DNA from: Aliiroseovarius sp. M344
GTDB lineage: Bacteria; Pseudomonadota; Alphaproteobacteria; Rhodobacterales; Rhodobacteraceae
Length of the DNA: 64,000 nt
Assembly (NCBI RefSeq): GCF_025140835.1
Contig: NZ_CP081153.1
Span: 1,922,001-1,986,000 of the forward strand
Direction: 5' to 3'
The notes beneath the pieces were generated by a model. The model was not told where the DNA came from, made no database searches, and worked only from the letters and a program-made list of their open reading frames with translations. Made by a program: the position numbers and the translations under genes. This document shows, piece after piece, positions 53,642 to 64,000 of the stretch (positions are counted from its first letter, which is position 1; each line of letters begins with the position of its first letter).

Positions 53642-53973
53642 CCTGGCCAAAGCCCGCTGAGGTTGTGCAATGAACGCGCGGCTCCAAGCGACCTGCCTAG
53701 CCCCCAAGATTTGGGGGCTGGGTCACATAAAGGTCAGGTAAGTGGCCCCAGCAAAGCGTGTCATTGTGAAAGCGTGAAAGAATACACGCTCAAATTGTGT
53801 GAAAATGGCAACAAATTTTCCTTTTTCAACGAATTCCCGTTTCGGTTCACCCCGATTGACCGATATCAAATCATATTATTCGCATGTGAATATGCTGGCC
53901 ACGACACCCTGCGTATGTGTCAGTTGTTTTTGTTTTCAGGGTGAGGGGAATAATTTTTTTTGAAGAGGCAAAA
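53642..53973. other. 332-bp intergenic region, AT-rich in its second half
   Basis: No gene is seen. The first part holds the hairpin at 53699-53719. From about 53760 the composition becomes markedly AT-rich, with an inverted repeat CATATT (53872-53877) / AATATG (53889-53894). It presumably contains the promoter of the anchor-F gene; no good -35/-10 pair stood out. Confidence 0.5.
53699..53719. other. Perfect 9-bp stem-loop downstream of the DUF2202 gene
   Basis: AGCCCCCAA-GAT-TTGGGGGCT, 58 bp after the stop. There is no T-run on either side, so it is not a canonical terminator but may protect the message end. Confidence 0.6.
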
Positions 53974-56196
53974 ATGCGCAAAAATTTAACCAGATACGCG
54001 ACAGTCGCGCCGACTGCACTTTTGGTGATGCTGAACGGACCGCTGAACGCAGGGACGTTTGAGGACATCGCACTACAACAAGTCATCGGTGATGGGTACG
54101 TGTATGTCGATGCAGAAGAAGGTGTGGTAGAGCCGGGCTTGCAGGCCATAACCGGCGCGGTGAACGCTGACTATCCGAATACAGACAGCCCGAAAAACAT
54201 GGAAAACTGTCTGATGGCGAGCAATCCAGACGTCATCTGTACGTCAGAGCGCGGATCGGGCAAGCGCATCAAAACCAGACTGACCGGACAAAACGGCATG
54301 GACATGCTTTTGCAAACCCGGCCGAGCAACGGTATCACCGAGTATTTCCTGTACGGCAAAACCTCCAATCTTACCGGTGCACGCATAACGGGGATGGATA
54401 TCCAATTGGGAACGGGCAGTGGTGCGGACTTTGTTCCGATGGATCCAAGCGATCCAACGATTGCGGCCCTGTTTGACCCCGACTTCAATTCGAAATTCAA
54501 CCTGCCGGATGGCTTGTTCGGAAATGGCGGCAACGAAGGTGCTGGCACCGGTTTCTTTGACGACACCAAGGCGATCATGACCGCTGTGCTGACAAACCCA
54601 ACCCTTGCGGTCAGCAACCTGACCAACGCGACCCACAGCCTGTACTTTGGCGATGCACTTCTGGACAACAGCATGGTGCCCGATGGGTATTTCTGGGATG
54701 CCGCTGGCACACCGCTTGAATCAGACGAGGCTGTCTTGATTGCGTGGTACCATACCGGTCAAGGAAAGTGGCTTTATGGCACATTGGGTACGGATACACC
54801 GGATCCCGGTGTTCTGTCGCAGGACGAAAGGGTGGCCGAGCTTGCCAAAAGCCTTGGCGTAACCGTTGCGCAACTTGGTTATACAAGTGGCGGCGAAATC
54901 CCCCCTGCCATTCTGGCAAAGATGGAAGCGGATAGTATTTTCTCGGTCGATGTGATCGAGGATCTCCGCAACTTGAACCTCAACTTCATCATCGATCTTG
55001 GTGATGTTGCAGGCAATCAGGTGACGTTGCGCTTGCTGCCAACATTCGCCCCGATCGTGCAACAGGCCAATACGCCTTATCAATTTACCGTCGCCGGACA
55101 CTTGGATGGCGCTGCAAACGTTCCTTATCTAGATCTCGGGAATGCCGCGACCTATGGCGCTGCGATCAATAGCCTGCTTGCGATGGACGCCGTCCAGCGC
55201 GCTGAGCAGCTGGAACGGATCGGCTTTAGCTTCATGCCCGCCTTTTCGAGCCTTGGGTTCGAATTCTCGCGCAGCCAGGTTAGTGCCTTCAACAGTTCGT
55301 CTGGCCCGGCCTCCGGCGCTGGTGAGACTGTAAGCTCTCGTGGGGCCCCCAGTAAGTGGCAGATGGGCAGTGACCTGAATGCAATCATGTCGATCTCAGG
55401 GACGCGCACGCAATATGCGACTTCTCTGAACAACATTGGCTACGACCTCGATTTTGCCAATGTCAGCGTCGGCGCTGAGAAAACTGTGAACAACGACAGC
55501 TCGGTTGGAGTGATGCTGGGGTGGTCCAAGGGTACTGCCGATGCCTTCAACGATCGTGGTTCAGTCGAGGCCACTGGCCTGTCGGTCGCTGCATTCGGGC
55601 GCACCACCTTCGGTAAGTCTGGCAATCTGCAAGGCATCATCGGCTACCAAGGTCTGTCGTACGACTCGACACGTAACGTGATGGGGCAAACGGCCACCGG
55701 AAGCACCGACGGATCACAATTCTTTGCAGCTGTTCGCGGGGATTACATGATCGAAAAAGGAGCACTTTCCTTTGGCCCGACCATGGCGCTTGAGTATTAT
55801 GGGCTCAATGTGGATGCCTTCGACGAAACAGGGGCTGGACCATGGAACCTGACCGTGGGCGATCAGTCCAGCGATGTGTTTCTGGCCTCAGTCGGGATGC
55901 GGGGCGCATATGATCTGCCCAGCAAGCGTGGCAACACGAAGCTGACAGGCAGTGTCGCTTTCACCAAGGCCTCTGGCGGTGATTATATTGTCGAAAACGG
56001 TTTCGTTGGCTTGTCTGGCAACCCAATCCCCGTCGACGGGTTTGATGACAGCTGGGTGGACGTGAGCGTCGGCATCTCGACCGAGCTGGCGCGCTCAAAC
56101 GGGTCCCAGACCATCCTTCACGGTGGATATTCCGGCTCGTTCAGTGACAATTATGAAAGCCACGGCTTGCAAGTTGGCGTGCAGATGGTGTTCTGA
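53974..56196 (+). CDS. Choice-of-anchor F family protein with autotransporter-like barrel
   Basis: A 740-residue exported protein. There is a signal peptide (about 1-27, ending LNAG), then a region with the choice-of-anchor F pattern (about 60-250; DVICTSERGSGKRIKTRLTG, ITEYFLYGKTSNLTGARITGMDIQLGTG). The C-terminal ~280 residues (from about 462) look like a 12-strand autotransporter beta barrel with alternating aromatic strands, ending VQMVF with the terminal Phe needed for outer-membrane insertion. It may be surface-displayed. AGAGG precedes ATG 53974. A strong terminator follows. Confidence 0.82.
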   Translation: MRKNLTRYATVAPTALLVMLNGPLNAGTFEDIALQQVIGDGYVYVDAEEGVVEPGLQAITGAVNADYPNTDSPKNMENCLMASNPDVICTSERGSGKRIKTRLTGQNGMDMLLQTRPSNGITEYFLYGKTSNLTGARITGMDIQLGTGSGADFVPMDPSDPTIAALFDPDFNSKFNLPDGLFGNGGNEGAGTGFFDDTKAIMTAVLTNPTLAVSNLTNATHSLYFGDALLDNSMVPDGYFWDAAGTPLESDEAVLIAWYHTGQGKWLYGTLGTDTPDPGVLSQDERVAELAKSLGVTVAQLGYTSGGEIPPAILAKMEADSIFSVDVIEDLRNLNLNFIIDLGDVAGNQVTLRLLPTFAPIVQQANTPYQFTVAGHLDGAANVPYLDLGNAATYGAAINSLLAMDAVQRAEQLERIGFSFMPAFSSLGFEFSRSQVSAFNSSSGPASGAGETVSSRGAPSKWQMGSDLNAIMSISGTRTQYATSLNNIGYDLDFANVSVGAEKTVNNDSSVGVMLGWSKGTADAFNDRGSVEATGLSVAAFGRTTFGKSGNLQGIIGYQGLSYDSTRNVMGQTATGSTDGSQFFAAVRGDYMIEKGALSFGPTMALEYYGLNVDAFDETGAGPWNLTVGDQSSDVFLASVGMRGAYDLPSKRGNTKLTGSVAFTKASGGDYIVENGFVGLSGNPIPVDGFDDSWVDVSVGISTELARSNGSQTILHGGYSGSFSDNYESHGLQVGVQMVF

Positions 56197-56514: not shown

Positions 56515-57600
56515 TCAGTCGTTCAGCACGGCCATGTTTTCTGCTTCCCAGCCGATCCAAACCGGATCGCTGCCGACCGATTGGCCGGTTTCTGCATCCA
56601 CATAGGCTTTCAAAAGCGCGTCGCCGGCCTCACCCACCGCGATTTCCATCGCCATGCGTGACCCTAGAAAGGTTCTGCCAACCACACGTCCCTGCACCGC
56701 GTTGCCGGATTTCGGACGCTCTGCATGGAAGTCCAGCTTTTCCAAACGCACCGAGGCGGTGATCTGTTGCCCCTCGCCGGGCAAGGTGTCGGGTGCTGTG
56801 CCCCTGAGGGTCGTCCCTTCCCAATCCATCACCACTTTGCCGCCTTCTGTGCCTCGCATCCGACCCGAGAGCAAGTTGGTTTCCCCAATGAATTCGGCCA
56901 CGAAACGGCTGGTGGGGTGGAAATACAATTCTTCCGGTGTGCCATCCTGTTCCACCCGGCCTTGGTTCATCACGACGATCCGGTCAGACATGGTCAGCGC
57001 TTCTTCCTGGTCGTGGGTGACGAAGAAGAATGTCTTGTGAGTGCGACGCTGGATTGACTTCAGCTCTTGCTGGACCTGTCCGCGCAGTTTGGCGTCCAAC
57101 GCCCCTAGCGGTTCGTCCAACAGCAAAAGTGCTGGGTCGGGCGCCAGCGCACGGGCCAACGCAACACGCTGCCGCTGTCCACCGGACAATTGCACCGGAT
57201 ACCGATCGCCGTAGGTATCAAGCTCAAGAAACGACATGATCTCGTCCGAGCGGCGCTTGATCTCTGTCTTGCCCATGCCCTTCAGCTCCAACCCGAACGA
57301 GATGTTCTGCGCCACAGTCATGTGCGGGAACAGGGCATAATCCTGAAACACCATATTCACGTGCCGCTTTTCGGGCGGCTGGTTCGTCACATCTTCACCG
57401 TCGAGGATCACACGGCCGGTGGTCGGACGTTCGAACCCGCCAAGGATGCGCAGCGTTGTGGACTTGCCGCAGCCCGACGGACCAAGGAAGGTCACAAACT
57501 CGCCCTGTGCTATGTCCAAGGTCAGGTTCTCCAGCGCGACGGTCTTGCCGAAATGCTTGGACAGGCCCTCAATTCGGACGAGTGGAGTTTGATCGGTCAT
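56515..57600 (-). CDS. Polyamine-type ABC transporter, ATP-binding protein (PotA-like)
   Basis: A 361-residue PotA-family ATPase with Walker A GPSGCGKST (about 40-48), LSGGQRQRVALARAL, LLLLDEPLGALDA and a C-terminal TOBE domain (EFIGETNLL is typical of PotA). It is the last gene of an eight-gene operon, 3 bp after the second permease. Substrate class (polyamine or related amine) is inferred from family. Confidence 0.92.
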   Translation of the reverse strand: MTDQTPLVRIEGLSKHFGKTVALENLTLDIAQGEFVTFLGPSGCGKSTTLRILGGFERPTTGRVILDGEDVTNQPPEKRHVNMVFQDYALFPHMTVAQNISFGLELKGMGKTEIKRRSDEIMSFLELDTYGDRYPVQLSGGQRQRVALARALAPDPALLLLDEPLGALDAKLRGQVQQELKSIQRRTHKTFFFVTHDQEEALTMSDRIVVMNQGRVEQDGTPEELYFHPTSRFVAEFIGETNLLSGRMRGTEGGKVVMDWEGTTLRGTAPDTLPGEGQQITASVRLEKLDFHAERPKSGNAVQGRVVGRTFLGSRMAMEIAVGEAGDALLKAYVDAETGQSVGSDPVWIGWEAENMAVLND

Positions 57601-57603
57601 GGA

Positions 57604-58407
57604 TTAGCTTTCCTTGTTCATGCGGCGGGTGAAGCGTTCGGCCCATATGCCGATCGCGGCCGTCAGGACCAGCGCAACAGTTGCAATGGCGTTAATCTCC
57701 GGGCTCATGCCTGAACGAAGTTTTGCAAAGATCAGCACCGGCAGCGTCGGTTCGTAACCGCCTAGAAAGAACGAGCGCACAAAATCGTCGAACGACAGCA
57801 ATAGGCAGAAAATCGACGCGCCAAGAACGGCGGGCACCAGATACGGCAAGGTGATCCGAACAAACGTGACCAGCGGGTCAGCGCCAAGGTCGCGAGCGGC
57901 TTCAATCTGGCTTCTCGGCAGAGTCGACAGTCGTGCCATCACCACAAGCACCACGAAGGGAACGTTGTGTACCGCGTGGGCCCAAACAATCGCGCCCATA
58001 CCGGGTTCGATCCCGAGATAGCGCGCGTAGATACGAAAGGCGATGGCCGAGATGATGCCCGGCACCAACGCCGGCAAAACCGTCATCCCGAACACCGCTG
58101 CCCGACCGAAGAACTTCCGCCCCTCCAGCAGCACGGCAATCCATGTGCCGACAAGGACCGAGATCAGTGTCGACATAACCGCGATGGCCAGAGAGTACCC
58201 GAAGGTCGATAATACCTGAGCGTCTGCAAAAACACCGGTGTACCAATCCAGCGTCCAGGACCGGATCGGGAAGCCGATGAACTTCGAATCCTTGAAGCCC
58301 ATCATCACCATCAGGAACAACGGCACAAAGACATACAGGACAAATGCCCAATAAATGCAGCTTAGGAAAATGCGGTTGCCGCGGAAAACTTCTTCGCGAT
58401 CATTCAT
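57604..58407 (-). CDS. Polyamine-type ABC transporter permease (PotC-like)
   Basis: A 267-residue inner-membrane permease; EAA loop LPRSQIEAARDLGADPLVTFVRITLPYLVP. The start is ATG 58405-58407 (MNDREEVF), overlapping the upstream permease by four bases; longer starts lie inside that gene. Confidence 0.92.
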   Translation of the reverse strand: MNDREEVFRGNRIFLSCIYWAFVLYVFVPLFLMVMMGFKDSKFIGFPIRSWTLDWYTGVFADAQVLSTFGYSLAIAVMSTLISVLVGTWIAVLLEGRKFFGRAAVFGMTVLPALVPGIISAIAFRIYARYLGIEPGMGAIVWAHAVHNVPFVVLVVMARLSTLPRSQIEAARDLGADPLVTFVRITLPYLVPAVLGASIFCLLLSFDDFVRSFFLGGYEPTLPVLIFAKLRSGMSPEINAIATVALVLTAAIGIWAERFTRRMNKES

Positions 58408-59384
58408 TTCCGCTCTCCTTTTCGCAGCGCGTTCATCAACTTCTGGAACGTCGCCGTGATGATAAGTGCCGCCATGAACATGATCGTGGCAAAGGCCGCG
58501 CCCGTAGGCCATTCGTCACCCGCCACGTGGAAGAAACCCGCGATGGTTTCGGCAAACACCGTGGTCGACGGCCCCCCCAGCAGAACCGGCGTCGCGTAAA
58601 ACCCGGTTGAGATCAGGAACACCAGCGTGCAACCCGACGAGATGCCTTCGATGGTCAGCGGTAGAGACACGCGGCGAAACCGGGTCCACGCGCCTGCGCC
58701 CAGATCGGCCGCAGCCTCGTTCATGCTTTGCGGCAGTTTCTCAAGCGCGGAATATAGTGGAAGCAACATGTAAAGCGCCGTCAGGTAGACGATACCAACC
58801 CCCATGGAAAAGCTCGTGTACATAAACGGAATGGGACGGTCGATTAGGCCCAGCCACTTCAAGACCAAATTGACAGCCCCCGTATTGCCCAACAGGATCA
58901 TGATCGCATAGGTGCGCACGATCTCGCCCACCCAGAATGGGATCAACAGAAGCAGCAGAAACAGCATCTGGTTTTTGCGGCTGACATGACGGGCAAGAAA
59001 ATAAGCCACCGGATAGGTTATAATCAGAGTGCAGAAAGTAAACACCCCGGCAAACGCCAATGTTCGAAAGAACGGCATCCAGAAAATGCTGTCGCCAAAG
59101 AAGCGGGCGTAATTATCCAACGTAAAATGTTGCTCGACCCCTGGCGCGACCGGATAGGCATCCGTCAGCGAAACACGAAACATCTGCAACATCGGACCAA
59201 GATGCTGTGTCAGCACCCACAAGATCGGAAAGGCGGCAAGAATAAGGAACTGGCGGCGGGGCGATGCGGTCGCCAAACGCATCAACGTATGATACGGCCC
59301 CCATCCCATCAGGCGGCCCCAAAATGTGCGGCCCGAGCTGTCATTCATCATGGCGCGCTCGTCTTGCTGTGCGTCAATGGTCAT
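58404..59384 (-). CDS. Polyamine-type ABC transporter permease (PotB-like)
   Basis: A 326-residue permease with EAA loop LPQSMNEAAADLGAGAWTRFRRVSLPLT. A long N-terminal cytoplasmic segment precedes the first membrane helix. I chose ATG 59382-59384; a TTG five codons upstream and ATGs downstream are alternatives, and no clear Shine-Dalgarno decides. It overlaps the PotC-like gene (ATGA). Confidence 0.88.
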   Translation of the reverse strand: MTIDAQQDERAMMNDSSGRTFWGRLMGWGPYHTLMRLATASPRRQFLILAAFPILWVLTQHLGPMLQMFRVSLTDAYPVAPGVEQHFTLDNYARFFGDSIFWMPFFRTLAFAGVFTFCTLIITYPVAYFLARHVSRKNQMLFLLLLLIPFWVGEIVRTYAIMILLGNTGAVNLVLKWLGLIDRPIPFMYTSFSMGVGIVYLTALYMLLPLYSALEKLPQSMNEAAADLGAGAWTRFRRVSLPLTIEGISSGCTLVFLISTGFYATPVLLGGPSTTVFAETIAGFFHVAGDEWPTGAAFATIMFMAALIITATFQKLMNALRKGERK

Positions 59385-59412
59385 GCGGATTTCTTTCAAG
59401 GGTGAGTGCGCC

Positions 59413-59437
59413 CCTGCCCCGCAGGTGGCGGGACAGG
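59413..59437 (-). other. Intercistronic stem-loop behind the polyamine-type binding-protein gene
   Basis: On the minus strand CCTGTCCCGC pairs with GCGGGGCAGG (ten pairs, one G-U), 5-nt loop. It begins 22 nt after the binding-protein stop and lies 28 nt before the permease start. No T-run. Confidence 0.75.
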
Positions 59438-59459
59438 GACAAGGCTCAGAAGCAAAAGA

Positions 59460-60569
59460 TCAGGCGGCTTTGATCGCCTCGACAGCGGGATCAACAAGGC
59501 CATACTTCATATCGTTCGCTTCCGCGCGGAAGAACTGCAGGTTCGCCAGCTGCTCTTCCGGGAACGATGTCGACTTTTTCTCAAGGTCGCTCAGATGCTG
59601 CGAGGCATCCTTGTAGGTCGAGATGAAGCCTGACGCCTTCGTCATAGCCGCACCGATCTCGGACGACGCAAGGATGGCATCAAGGAAGGTATAGGCGTTA
59701 TCCACATTCGGTGCATTATTGGCGATGTTGTAGGTGTAAACAAAGCCATAAGACCCTTCGCGTGGGATGGTCATTGCGAGCGGGAAACCATCATTGATCA
59801 AGGCTGCCGCCGGACCGTTCCAGGAATGGCCCAACGCGATATCCTGATTGACCATCATTTGCTGGAACTCGGCGCCACCATCATAGTATTTCCGCACCAG
59901 CGGTTTCTTGTCGATCAGGAACTGCTTGGCTTCTTCGACGATCTGGGCGGCCTTCTCGGGGTCGTCCATATACTCAACCATATTGCCGTCATATCCCTTC
60001 ATCAGCATCACGATCGACATCATGTCCTGAATGATATAGGCAGTCTGGCCGCTGTATTTCTCGCTAAACAGCGTGTCCCAGGTCATCGCTTCTTCTTCGC
60101 TCACCAGCTCGGTGTTGTAAGACAGAACTTCCATCCCCGACAGGATCGGCGCGCCCCATTTGTTGTCATTGATCGTCGACCAGTCGCTTTCCGAGAAGGT
60201 CGGGTTAATGTTGCCCCAATTGCTAAGACGGCCTGTATCAAGCGGCGCCAGAAGGTCGCTGTCGATGAACTGCAGGAACCGGTGGCCAGCGACGGTCATG
60301 ATGTCCACGGTCGGGTTTGGTTGCTCGGCCGCCAGCAGATTAAACTGTTTGCCCTGATCATCCACGAGGCGGACATTGACCTTGATGCCGGTTTCGGATT
60401 CGAACTGTTCTTTGAACGCTTCTGGTACGAAATCGTTGTAGGTCCAGATATTAACCTCGCCGCCCGACTGGGCTGCGGCCCGTCGCAAATAAAAGGGCGA
60501 AGCAAGCGCTGCGCCAGTGGCAGCGGCGGTGCCAAGAAAGCGGCGACGGTTATAAATCAATTTTGACAT
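59460..60569 (-). CDS. Polyamine-type ABC transporter substrate-binding protein (PotD/F-like), Tat signal
   Basis: A 369-residue periplasmic binding protein. The N-terminus carries a twin-arginine motif (NRRRFLG, residues 7-13) followed by a hydrophobic stretch and AAAQ, so export is probably by Tat. The mature part begins VNIWTYNDFVPEAFKEQFESETGIKVNV, typical of the PotD/PotF family. AGGAG precedes ATG 60569. It lies 56 bp after the opine-dehydrogenase-like gene. Confidence 0.9.
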   Translation of the reverse strand: MSKLIYNRRRFLGTAAATGAALASPFYLRRAAAQSGGEVNIWTYNDFVPEAFKEQFESETGIKVNVRLVDDQGKQFNLLAAEQPNPTVDIMTVAGHRFLQFIDSDLLAPLDTGRLSNWGNINPTFSESDWSTINDNKWGAPILSGMEVLSYNTELVSEEEAMTWDTLFSEKYSGQTAYIIQDMMSIVMLMKGYDGNMVEYMDDPEKAAQIVEEAKQFLIDKKPLVRKYYDGGAEFQQMMVNQDIALGHSWNGPAAALINDGFPLAMTIPREGSYGFVYTYNIANNAPNVDNAYTFLDAILASSEIGAAMTKASGFISTYKDASQHLSDLEKKSTSFPEEQLANLQFFRAEANDMKYGLVDPAVEAIKAA

Positions 60570-60625
60570 CTTAAGTCTCCTTGTTGGTTCAGTGGTCTTC
60601 TTCTTGGTTAATATCTTGTCACAGG

Positions 60626-61723
60626 TCAGGCGGTCGCGGGGTGCTGAAGCAGCCCGGTCTTTGCGGCCCGCTTCAAATCATCAAGGCTGAAGCGACCTAG
60701 GTCCAGCGCTTTCAAAATTTCGTTTTCTTCCCCGAAGTCTCGTCCATACATGGCTGAGAAGATGCGTATGCCAGCCTCGTGCAGAGGCGCGGGGTGGCCA
60801 GTAAGTCGGCCAAGCTCTGCTGTCAGAACCAGCCCATAGGGCACATCTTCGGTCACATACCGGCTGTCCGCTGTGGCAGGCCCAATGCCGCCATTTCCCT
60901 GTGCGTGCATCTGCTGGTTCATTTCCGAAATCGAGGCGACCGGCACGTGGAAAGACAGGTGAAAATGTTCGAAAATCGTCTTCACATCCAGCCCTAACGC
61001 CCGTGCAATCTCCAGACGCTCCCGATCCAGCTCTTCCAACAGCTTGCCCACTTTGGGCGTCACGTTCTGACCTTGCGACCACGTTTCGCCCTGCTCCATC
61101 CGGGTGATGTTACCCAAGGCAATACCCATATGGTTTTGCGGGTTCAGGTTGGACAGCGAGATCGCAAGAAGGCCATCGCGCGGTTGAAACCGGTCGCCGA
61201 ACAGGGTTTGGCACAGGCTCAAAGCTTCTTCGGACCGTATATCCGGCACAGTGCACAGATCTACCCGGCTGCGCACGGTGTTCACTTTTACCTCGGTGCC
61301 CGATTGCCGCCGCCCGGTGCAAATCGTGGTGCCCCAAGCGGTGATCGGAACGATCACGCCACGTGCGGACAGAAGCTGCATCAGATAGACAGCCCCAAGC
61401 GAGGCATGGGATGACATAATCACCTGATGGTGCGGCTTGATATGCGGGGCCAAGGCGTCCAGTACGGCCTTATGGCCGTAACCGGGCAGCGCGATGATCA
61501 GCACTTCATTGTCCCGCGCCAGCATTGCCGCGCTGTCAGCAATGCGCGGCGCCAGCTTGACCTCGACCGCGCCCACGGCGGTCAGGGCTGCGCCCCCCGC
61601 AAGCTCTGACGTGCCTTTGCCCGACGGCGACCACAGCATCGGATCATGGCCTGCCTTGTGCAACAGCGCCGCAGTTGCGAATGCGATGGATCCCGCGCCT
61701 GCCAGTCCGACCATTTTGCCCAC
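60626..61723 (-). CDS. Opine/octopine dehydrogenase family protein (NAD/NADP-dependent)
   Basis: A 365-residue enzyme. There is an N-terminal Rossmann domain (GLAGAGSIAFATAALL; about 5-20) and a C-terminal NAD_octopine_DH domain (about 180-345, with NPQNHMG and the conserved His region). Relatives join an amino acid to a 2-oxo acid, or oxidise the resulting opine back. I chose GTG 61721-61723 because GGGAG lies five bases upstream; the ATG at 61735 has no such site. The gene sits between the AhpD-like gene and the binding protein, so the importer may bring in an opine-like secondary amine. This is inference. Confidence 0.82.
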   Translation of the reverse strand: MGKMVGLAGAGSIAFATAALLHKAGHDPMLWSPSGKGTSELAGGAALTAVGAVEVKLAPRIADSAAMLARDNEVLIIALPGYGHKAVLDALAPHIKPHHQVIMSSHASLGAVYLMQLLSARGVIVPITAWGTTICTGRRQSGTEVKVNTVRSRVDLCTVPDIRSEEALSLCQTLFGDRFQPRDGLLAISLSNLNPQNHMGIALGNITRMEQGETWSQGQNVTPKVGKLLEELDRERLEIARALGLDVKTIFEHFHLSFHVPVASISEMNQQMHAQGNGGIGPATADSRYVTEDVPYGLVLTAELGRLTGHPAPLHEAGIRIFSAMYGRDFGEENEILKALDLGRFSLDDLKRAAKTGLLQHPATA

Positions 61724-61768
61724 GTGCTCTCCCATTATCTTGCTACATTAACCTTATCTTCGTCGCGC

Positions 61769-62359
61769 CTATGTGCCGCCCTCAGACACGCGCACCGGAT
61801 CACCCAGAACGTGCATCAACCGATTGGCCCAACCAAAAAGCGCAGCCGACAGGATCAGATCCAGCACCTCCGCCTCTGCCAAACCGGCGGCCTTTAGCGC
61901 GTCCATATGCTTTGGCGCCGCCTGTGACGGCGTTTCGGACAAGGCCACCGCGAAATCGAAAATCGCCCTGTCGCGTGTACTGAGATCCGCCTTTGCCCCA
62001 TCGCGAAACAACCTGTCCGTCACCTCGGTCGATTTCTCAAGCTGCGCATGGCGCGCGGCATGAACGGCGGCACAGTAAATGCAATGGTTGACCATCGAGG
62101 CCCCAAGCGCGCCCAACTCCCGTTCGGCCCTACTCATCCCACCCTTGTCATACATAATGGCATTAAACAGCGGCGAACGCACCTTCAGGCTTTCCACATC
62201 ATGCGCCAGCGTCAGAACATATTCCGACACTTTGGTGTTTGACGGGGTGACCTGTAACGCGTCCAACTGCGCCTCGGTCGCTTCGGACAGGTCGACCGGC
62301 GTCACCCGCGGCTGCCAATACGGGACATTGCGGGTGAATTTCGTGATCACCTTGGTCAT
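61769..62359 (-). CDS. AhpD-like peroxidase-related protein (CMD family)
   Basis: A 196-residue carboxymuconolactone-decarboxylase-fold protein. The redox motif CIYCAAVH gives Cys93, Cys96 and His100, as in AhpD alkylhydroperoxidases. The preceding SRAERELGALGASMVNH is typical of the AhpD-domain proteins that occur paired with a CMD protein beside flavin monooxygenases. It probably removes peroxide or an oxidised intermediate. It overlaps the next upstream gene by four bases. Confidence 0.87.
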   Translation of the reverse strand: MTKVITKFTRNVPYWQPRVTPVDLSEATEAQLDALQVTPSNTKVSEYVLTLAHDVESLKVRSPLFNAIMYDKGGMSRAERELGALGASMVNHCIYCAAVHAARHAQLEKSTEVTDRLFRDGAKADLSTRDRAIFDFAVALSETPSQAAPKHMDALKAAGLAEAEVLDLILSAALFGWANRLMHVLGDPVRVSEGGT

Positions 62360-62835
62360 GCAAACGCTCCCTTCATCAACCGCAGCCCAGCAATCACCCG
62401 GATCTGATAGGCCAGAAAAGCGTTCAACTCGGCCAGCCTCACGATGTCTGCATCTGCCACACCAACCGCTTGAAGACCCGCGATGTCGGCGGCGGCGACA
62501 TTGCGCGTGTCGGCGGCAACTTTGTCCATGAACCCCACGACCTCGGCCATACCTTGCGCGGCCCCGTCACTACTTGGGTCAACCAAATCGCCAAACGCGC
62601 CAGCGTCTTGCGCATAAAGGTCTGCAAGGTCCGTTTCGCCGTTTTTCTTTGCGATCCGTGCCGCCAGCGCCGCCCGCAATTCATGCGACCACGGGCCTTC
62701 ATCCTTCGGACGAAGCACGGCCTCTTCTGCAGCCTGGGTCATTTCAAAGATGTTGGCGCGCCCAACGACAGCCGCCCCCAAGTCGCCATCGGGCGAGATG
62801 CCCGAAAATCTCATCGCTGTCGTATCAAGCGCCAT
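62356..62835 (-). CDS. CMD-domain protein (AhpD-like fold, no CxxC)
   Basis: A 159-residue, mostly helical protein. The region ELRAALAARIAKKNGETDLADLYAQ resembles the helical core of CMD-domain proteins that accompany the AhpD-like partner. No cysteine is present, so it cannot itself do CxxC redox chemistry and may be a structural or regulatory partner. It shares one base with the monooxygenase stop (TGATG) and overlaps the AhpD-like gene by four bases. Confidence 0.75.
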   Translation of the reverse strand: MALDTTAMRFSGISPDGDLGAAVVGRANIFEMTQAAEEAVLRPKDEGPWSHELRAALAARIAKKNGETDLADLYAQDAGAFGDLVDPSSDGAAQGMAEVVGFMDKVAADTRNVAAADIAGLQAVGVADADIVRLAELNAFLAYQIRVIAGLRLMKGAFA

Positions 62836-64000
62836 CAGGCGACCTCCCCCTTCTCACTTTCCGTGATCAGGTCGGTGGGCACCCATTCGCTGCCATCCAG
62901 CTCTGGTTTGTCGTAATCCAGCATGGCTTGCCAATGCTCGGAGACATCCTCGACATACAGCTTCGCGGCAATCTCGCGCGCCATCCAGTTTGCCCCGTCC
63001 GATATCCCCGGAATATCCCCCGAAACCTTACCCAGACTGGCCGAAGCGCCGTAATTGAAGCAATAAACATTGGAGAGCCACGGCGCGGTGCCCGACACTT
63101 TTTCGCGGAAAGTGAAATCGTCATTCAGATAAGGGAACCGCCCCAGATCGCGCGACGGCTCATCCGCGGGCGGCGTGTAGACATCCTGCCAAAGCAGAAT
63201 ATTGGTGGCCGCGTCCCCAAATTCGGTCCGCGACAAGGGGTCAATGGTGAAGCCGGTGCCAAGGATCACGAAATCAGCCTCATAGGCCGTGCCATCGGCA
63301 AAGCCCACTTTCACTGCGCCATTCTGCTCGACCGTCGTTTGCACCGCCTTGCCGAAATGGAAATGCGCGTTCGGATGGCGGCTGACCCGGTTGGTCGAGC
63401 CATGCGGCGGCGGCGTCTGAGTGGCAAAGGAATACTGCATGAAGCGCCAGCGCCATTCATCTGGCAGACTGGCATAGCCAGCGGTGAACCCGAACGAACC
63501 GATCCCCATCATCTTATTGATGGTCGGCATTTCGGTGCGCCGGATCAGGTGGCGCACTTCAGTCGCGCGATGCTCCAGCGCTTCGGCCGCATTATCGACG
63601 GCTGACGCCCCCACGCCCACAACGGCCACCCGCTTGTTCTTCAGCGCGGCAAAGTCGATCTCGTCCGCACTATGCGCCCAGAACTTGCGATCCAGACCCT
63701 GCACAAAACCGGGAATGTTGGGTTGCCCGGTGCCATCACGACCGGTTGCAAAAACCAGCTTGCGACACAGGATTGATTTTTCCTCGGCACCAGACAGATG
63801 TAGGCGGAGCAATTCCCCCTCGGGCTCAACCAAATCGACGGCCACGCCGTTTTCGGTCGGGATGTCCAACACCTGCCGATACCATTGTAGGTATTCCATC
63901 CACATCGGACGCGGGATCTTGTCCAGTGCGTCCCAACCCTCGGTGCCAAACTGCGCGCGATACCACGCCTGAAAGCTCAACGCGCCATGACCAAAGGCCG
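62835..64000 (-). CDS. Flavin-dependent monooxygenase / NAD(P)-binding protein, C-terminal part
   Basis: Partial; the frame is open through base 64000, so the N-terminal FAD-binding region lies outside. The visible ~388 codons include KLVFATGRDG (FAD-side), the NADPH motif VVGVGASAVDNAAEA, and ILGTGFTIDP near the C-terminal third, as in class B flavin monooxygenases (FMO, N-hydroxylating or Baeyer-Villiger). An internal TTG at 63980 is not the true start because coding similarity continues upstream (AFGHGALSFQAW). First visible gene of the operon leading to the polyamine-type transporter. Confidence 0.88.
   Translation of the reverse strand, partial: AFGHGALSFQAWYRAQFGTEGWDALDKIPRPMWMEYLQWYRQVLDIPTENGVAVDLVEPEGELLRLHLSGAEEKSILCRKLVFATGRDGTGQPNIPGFVQGLDRKFWAHSADEIDFAALKNKRVAVVGVGASAVDNAAEALEHRATEVRHLIRRTEMPTINKMMGIGSFGFTAGYASLPDEWRWRFMQYSFATQTPPPHGSTNRVSRHPNAHFHFGKAVQTTVEQNGAVKVGFADGTAYEADFVILGTGFTIDPLSRTEFGDAATNILLWQDVYTPPADEPSRDLGRFPYLNDDFTFREKVSGTAPWLSNVYCFNYGASASLGKVSGDIPGISDGANWMAREIAAKLYVEDVSEHWQAMLDYDKPELDGSEWVPTDLITESEKGEVA

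Follow-up and report, generated by a model that had tools for sequence, protein, structure and literature searches.

A conserved operon in Aliiroseovarius sp. M344 with a possible role in the breakdown of a cysteine-derived amino acid

A stretch of 64,000 nucleotides from the genome of Aliiroseovarius sp. M344 (contig NZ_CP081153.1; hereafter the window) contains, at 56515-64000, eight open reading frames (ORFs) that all lie on the minus strand and are separated by short gaps or overlaps. Comparison with the sequences of other genomes confirmed that they belong to a conserved operon, which is probably catabolic. We tentatively propose, with somewhat less than even confidence, that this operon may serve to import and degrade a small amino acid that is derived from cysteine and substituted on its nitrogen, its sulfur, or both. 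Judged from gene content, the best clue to the substrate appears to be the replacement in a related locus of one gene, that for the SufS-like enzyme AT5, by a gene for a different cysteine-related enzyme.

Organization and conservation of the operon

Extension of the sequence to the right, a check suggested by an earlier sequence-only reading of this DNA, completed the gene for a monooxygenase-like enzyme and then revealed AT5 and a divergent Lrp/AsnC-type regulator gene. Positions beyond the window were obtained from L009, a stretch of the host genome that reaches beyond it (window position = L009 position + 55999). The genes of the operon are as follows.

56515..57600, minus strand: ATPase of an ABC importer, PotA-type, 361 aa (profile matches)
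57604..58512, minus strand: ABC permease 2, PotC-like (profile matches)
58404..59399, minus strand: ABC permease 1, PotB-like (Pfam BPD_transp_1 just under the cut-off, 24.1 against 26.4 bits)
59460..60569, minus strand: periplasmic substrate-binding protein (SBP), SBP_bac_8, with the polyamine-binding residues of PotD partly kept
60626..61735, minus strand: opine-dehydrogenase-family enzyme (OpDH) with an Octopine_DH domain
61769..62359, minus strand: AhpD/CMD-family thiol enzyme (AhpD) with a CxxCxxxH motif
62356..62835, minus strand: CMD-like partner protein (CMD) without this motif
62835..64000, minus strand, continuing past the window: FAD/NAD(P) monooxygenase-like enzyme (FMO), 488 aa, complete at L009 6836-8302
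equivalent of 64390-65850, after FMO: AT5, SufS-like pyridoxal phosphate (PLP) enzyme of aminotransferase class V, 486 aa

The ATPase and permease 2 genes are separated by 3 bases, whereas AhpD and CMD overlap by 4 bases and CMD and FMO by 1 base. Permease 2 likely starts at an internal ATG near 58407, in which case its gene still overlaps that of permease 1. In window numbering, the start codon of FMO is at base 64301, i.e. 301 bases outside the window. The likely ATG of the Lrp/AsnC gene is located 100 bases from the start of AT5, and tdh (537 bits, curated cut-off 380) and kbl (631 bits, curated cut-off 460) are found beyond it. Promoter-like sites occur at chance level (5 found, 4.6 expected). 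The coordinates and strand of the eight genes described in the sequence-only reading were thus confirmed, but that gene set is incomplete: the operon also includes AT5, the regulator and, in 55 of the 80 named loci described below, an MFS transporter gene.

Two sets of loci were compared: an order set of 292 genomes, and a named set consisting of the best 80 of 147 stretches that encode a relative of OpDH. Because ten contigs, as judged by their lengths, are common to both, the sets are not independent, and pooled counts (such as those out of 96) draw on both. Loci ending at contig ends were kept in the counts as misses, and several gene calls in the relatives (Opp, LysR, and HyuA types) rest on visual inspection of translated ORFs and not on profiles. 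FMO matches at E 1e-30 or better were found in 27 of the 292 order genomes; 20 of these are at least 68% identical, and an OpDH that is at least 61% identical is present in exactly the same 20 genomes, one of which is the window's own (three more genomes carry OpDH at 26-46%). The genes therefore do co-occur in other genomes, the opposite of what the sequence-only reading had named as grounds for its dismissal.

The order FMO-CMD-AhpD-OpDH-SBP-permease 1-permease 2-ATPase is kept in 64 of the 80 named loci and in all 20 close order loci; since the whole order is maintained, the arrangement is not a chance one, and the neighbourhood comparison bears out the view that these genes form a single unit. 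Among the 16 named loci that depart from this order, L077 retains those five genes that are still present on its contig, and the remaining 15 are either truncated at contig ends (e.g. L090 and L116) or rearranged. Individual genes were found in the named loci as follows: FMO in 77, CMD and AhpD in 76, SBP in 79, AT5 in 53, MFS in 55, and Lrp in 52. The divergent Lrp gene adjoins AT5 in 52/80 named and 16/20 order loci. AT5-MFS-FMO is the arrangement in 46/80 named and 12/20 order loci, and the form seen here, AT5-FMO without an intervening MFS gene, occurs in 6/80 and 5/20, respectively; another part of the window genome encodes an MFS protein 45% identical to that of L065 (L257, 710441-711769).

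According to their record titles, the named loci include members of Roseobacter-group genera, Stappia, Roseibium, Pseudochrobactrum, Rhizobium, Shinella, and Granulosicoccus, and a sparse sampling of the class yielded OpDH at E 1e-50 or better in 5 of 385 genomes, including the window's own. The OpDH-importer set and the FMO/CMD/AhpD set are on separate contigs in genome G306. A record titled Enemella evansiae (Actinomycetota; L086) carries the cluster at 72-95% identity to the genes of the window, which probably reflects contamination or mislabelling. Two neighbouring genes, both called by eye, were also recorded: a 759-aa ORF with the look of an autotransporter-type outer-membrane protein (53917-56196, plus strand), convergent with the operon, and a cysteine-synthase-like PLP gene (L009 16403-17452) approximately 4 kb upstream of kbl.

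AT5 and its replacement

The alignment of AT5 with SufS covers EHHxNxxPW, HK, and the catalytic Cys, and the HHxNxxPW, HK, and CAC residues are invariant in 15/15 family members. AT5 thus has the PLP lysine, the HH loop, and the catalytic cysteine of SufS, residues to which we assign the roles that they presumably play in that enzyme. Each of eight genomes searched also contains a separate 28-32% match, presumably the housekeeping SufS.

In two loci, L136 and L129, the MFS-OpDH-importer core is present without FMO, CMD, and AhpD, and the slot directly before MFS differs: L136 has the order AT5-MFS-OpDH-SBP-permease-permease-ATPase-UroD, whereas L129 has RidA-Cds1-MFS-OpDH-SBP-permease-permease-ATPase-UroD. 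A UroD-family gene and a 3-hydroxyisobutyrate-dehydrogenase-like gene follow the ATPase gene in both (called by Pfam in L136 and by 86 and 70% identity to the L136 copies in L129). No AT5 orthologue was found elsewhere in the L129 genome, which contains just a 32% SufS-type match. Because AT5 is SufS-like and Cds1 is cysteine desulfhydrase-like, both enzymes found in this slot are in families named for acting on cysteine, and for this reason cysteine chemistry is favoured.

Similar genes recur in other combinations. The Cds1 of L129 is 71% identical to a protein of L045, and in L044 and L045 Cds1 and RidA accompany FMO, CMD, and AhpD, together with a BisC-type S/N-oxide-reductase-like gene (the L045 protein scored 587 bits against a cut-off of 1018). 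L180 combines Cds1 and RidA with a 42% OpDH and UroD, and L189 a 48% OpDH with UroD and M24- and BisC-type genes. A UroD/MtaA-like gene is present in 5 of 150 loci scanned (four with OpDH; the fifth, L256, was taken for its UroD), and FMO in none of the five. The four UroD-like proteins aligned share an HxC..C or HxH..C pattern, which may represent a zinc site as in thiol methyltransferases.

From the observed gene content, conservation, active-site residues, and gene replacement, we infer a substrate class, an order of steps, a mode of regulation, and a set of reactions. The divergent Lrp/AsnC regulator would probably control the operon, and the ABC importer would take up a substituted cysteine derivative. 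OpDH may oxidize the secondary amine on the C-N side, and FMO may attack the sulfur side, with the AhpD/CMD pair acting as a thiol reductase or partner. AT5 would then strip the sulfur from the released cysteine to leave alanine. In loci with linked kbl and tdh, glycine and acetyl-CoA might be formed from a C4 fragment, either 2-amino-3-ketobutyrate or threonine.

Weighing of the substrate readings

Several observations weigh against a cysteine-derived substrate. The replacement evidence comes from few loci (four with Cds1 and four OpDH loci with UroD); the two Cds1-like proteins scanned scored 561 and 570 bits (the latter from L045), under the L-cysteine desulfhydrase Cds1 cut-off of 600, and two UroD-like proteins reached 54 and 70 bits, where the best NCBIfam model requires 244. 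AT5 was not found in 27 of the 80 named loci; the available upstream sequence is shorter than 3 kb in nine of these and longer than 5 kb in 18, the latter including L082, L096, L111, and L115, which have an otherwise normal core, as well as the Rhizobiales type. Cds1 is present in just one of the 27 (L129). Among four Rhizobiales-type genomes without AT5 in the cluster, a 58% copy (G673) and a 57% piece of 154 residues (G674) were detected, and none was found elsewhere in G672 or G675. With AT5 in only 53/80 loci and Cds1 rarely in its place, the cysteine reading loses weight, since desulfuration is not coupled to the operon in every locus.

Other such points concern FMO. Profile scans place it among FAD/NAD(P) oxygenase-like proteins, and its predicted structure is closest in fold to the ornithine/diamine N-hydroxylases (PvdA, SidA, and DesB), tied with small FMOs, at 13-22% identity to the PvdA/SidA enzymes and small FMOs (PDB 3s61 and 4usr). 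FMO thus shares the fold of these N-hydroxylases, and the model comparison supports its earlier description as a flavoprotein monooxygenase. Its identification as ArsO was rejected (45.7 against a cut-off of 425). In two metagenome-assembled loci, L100 and L113, FMO and OpDH are present without CMD and AhpD; FMO follows the ATPase gene in L113. A set of 32 more distant FMO loci from the class contains one with CMD and AhpD (L224) and none with AT5, OpDH, or Cds1; among 10 distant loci of the order, AT5 is present in four and CMD and AhpD in two. A general link between the FMO superfamily as a whole and these partners was rejected on these loci. Apart from these points, three sister clusters (L042, L043, and L046) combine FMO (46-49%) and AT5 (56-59%) with another ABC importer, and two of them (L042 and L043) carry hydantoinase-type genes (HyuB of L042 confirmed by Pfam).

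Finally, kbl and tdh lie beside or inside the operon in 17/80 named and 8/20 order loci. They are located just past Lrp in the lineage of the window, near the operon in L067-L069 (in reversed orientation in L067), and directly after OpDH in five Rhizobiales-type loci that have no AT5 in the cluster. In 4/4 Rhizobiales-type genomes (one match at E 1e-60 or better in each), kbl has no close copy besides the linked one, and the same holds for the window genome, where the next best match is 37%; other tdh matches there are at 24-33%, or are short pieces at 36-47%. The idea that these are specialized paralogues is not supported, as kbl is the sole close copy and the other tdh matches are low or short. 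In L187, OpDH is beside a threonine ammonia-lyase gene (625 against a cut-off of 496 bits). A sole-copy kbl beside or inside some of the operons suggests a link to threonine. One might speculate that this link could be reconciled with sulfur chemistry if C-S cleavage left 2-amino-3-ketobutyrate.

The sequence-only reading had proposed an amine or opine-like substrate, and this idea survives in a nitrogen-centred form that we consider somewhat unlikely but a live rival. Here, an N-substituted, opine-like amino acid (perhaps of threonine) would be imported, FMO would N-hydroxylate the amine, OpDH would oxidize the secondary amine, and threonine or 2-amino-3-ketobutyrate would pass to Tdh and Kbl; sulfur would not be involved, and AT5 would act on another β-substituted amino acid. 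The fold of the FMO model, both threonine-related linkages, the sole copies of kbl, and the loci without AT5 all fit this scheme, as does OpDH. The latter scores 127.6 bits with Octopine_DH (PF02317; gathering threshold 30), and its His202/Asp297 pair, invariant in 22/22 sequences, aligns with that of CENDH (PDB 1bg6), where we take it to be catalytic; its earlier assignment as opine-dehydrogenase-like is thereby supported. However, the catalytic Cys kept by AT5 and the Cds1-like L-cysteine desulfhydrase that replaces AT5 in L129 do not fit, and this replacement favours cysteine chemistry. In L179 (9435-18033), a 46% OpDH relative has in its vicinity Opp-type transporter genes (recognized by eye) and flavoproteins, of which one gives a sarcosine-oxidase-alpha match below threshold; this setting suggests ordinary opine use.

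OpDH together with the importer and, in the 55 named loci mentioned above, an MFS gene might also indicate an opine-type metallophore, a metal chelator made by OpDH, exported by MFS, and recovered by the importer. This is highly improbable: the regulator is of the Lrp/AsnC type and not Zur or Fur, the window genome has no MFS gene between AT5 and FMO (although the 45% relative is encoded elsewhere), and the desulfurase and the kbl/tdh links do not fit. In addition, no nicotianamine-synthase Pfam match was found among the nine operon genes, the neighbouring genes not having been scanned for it.

The importer itself, with its PotA-type ATPase, two permeases, and SBP_bac_8 binding protein, is present as described earlier, and the sequence-only reading had taken it to be of the polyamine type, with catabolic genes for such a compound. 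The ATPase passes TIGR01187 (potA; 363.5 against 355.6 bits), and the binding protein has PotD-type proteins among its distant relatives. However, the binding protein scores 65.6 against a cut-off of 582 for the PotD equivalog, and among the PotD residues that presumably bind polyamine (W34, Glu36, W229, W255, and D257) only W229 is retained as Trp in 99/99 binding proteins; the W34, W255, and D257 positions are Tyr, Phe, and Tyr, respectively, in 99/99, and the Glu36 position is acidic in 57/99 (Asp in the window). The residue set of PotABCD systems is thus not retained, and because the Asp257 position is invariably Tyr, a polyamine ligand is disfavoured and that assignment appears very unlikely.

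Returning to the cysteine-derived substrate, a broader version, which we regard as decidedly unlikely, is that the operon represents a modular route freeing cysteine blocked on both N and S (thiomorpholine-, thiazolidine-, or methyllanthionine-like compounds). Interchangeable modules would serve C-N cleavage (OpDH, or the hydantoinase-, M24-, and M19-type enzymes of sister clusters), C-S cleavage (the N-hydroxylase-fold FMO with AhpD/CMD, or a UroD/MtaA-like enzyme), and desulfuration (AT5, or Cds1 and RidA). In versions linked to kbl and tdh, the partner on the sulfur side would be released as 2-amino-3-ketobutyrate, the outcome expected of a β-methyl thioether, e.g. 3-methyllanthionine. If the substrate is indeed derived from cysteine, marine and other Alphaproteobacteria and, judging from record titles, a few Gammaproteobacteria would use a dedicated route to reclaim carbon, nitrogen, and sulfur from a hitherto unrecognized class of modified cysteines, and a function would be provided for the AhpD/CMD pair and for an orphan desulfurase-like and opine-dehydrogenase-like subfamily.

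Comparison with known systems

Among the titles and abstract beginnings of the literature matches listed, none describes a pathway that unites these enzymes. AT5 shares the active-site motifs and the position of the catalytic Cys with SufS-type cysteine desulfurases but is approximately 70 residues longer and falls below the TIGR01979 (SufS) cut-off (121.7 against 475.1 bits). OpDH and CENDH are both Octopine_DH-family enzymes with the aligned His202 and Asp297, although they are distant (E 3.8e-44 with the family profile).

The sequence-only reading had described two AhpD/CMD proteins. This holds for AhpD, which passes TIGR01926 (193.1 against 81.8 bits) and has CxxCxxxH in 96/96 copies, but not fully for its partner, which has no Pfam family match and, because the motif is present in 0/96 copies, is probably not itself a peroxidase. 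The TIGR04029/TIGR04030 proteins (Avi_7170/Avi_7169) form the same kind of pair and, we assume, likewise stand beside a monooxygenase and an ABC transporter. However, the proteins of the operon are under both cut-offs (63.4 against 100.75 for the CMD partner with TIGR04029, and 156.6 against 233.15), and their partner is an FAD-type enzyme.

Among the closest parallels are the yxe and cmo pathways of Bacillus subtilis for S-alkylcysteine salvage, in which a flavin monooxygenase is reported to act on the C-S bond and cysteine is released (PMC9706529, PMC10863075), as is proposed here. C-S cleavage by CmoJ is reported to yield a sulfenic acid that is reduced afterwards (PMC10863075). These pathways acetylate and later deacetylate the substrate and use FMN-type monooxygenases such as YxeK (PMC9706529, PMC10863075), whereas profile scans of the nine operon genes identified neither an acetyltransferase nor a deacetylase; these genes instead encode an FAD class-B-type enzyme, an opine-dehydrogenase-family enzyme, and a desulfurase-like enzyme. 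In the yxe locus for S-(2-succino)cysteine, a lyase (2SL) is described as replacing the flavin monooxygenase gene yxeK (PMC9706529); this exchange of a monooxygenase for a non-oxidative enzyme offers a precedent for the FMO/UroD swap seen here.

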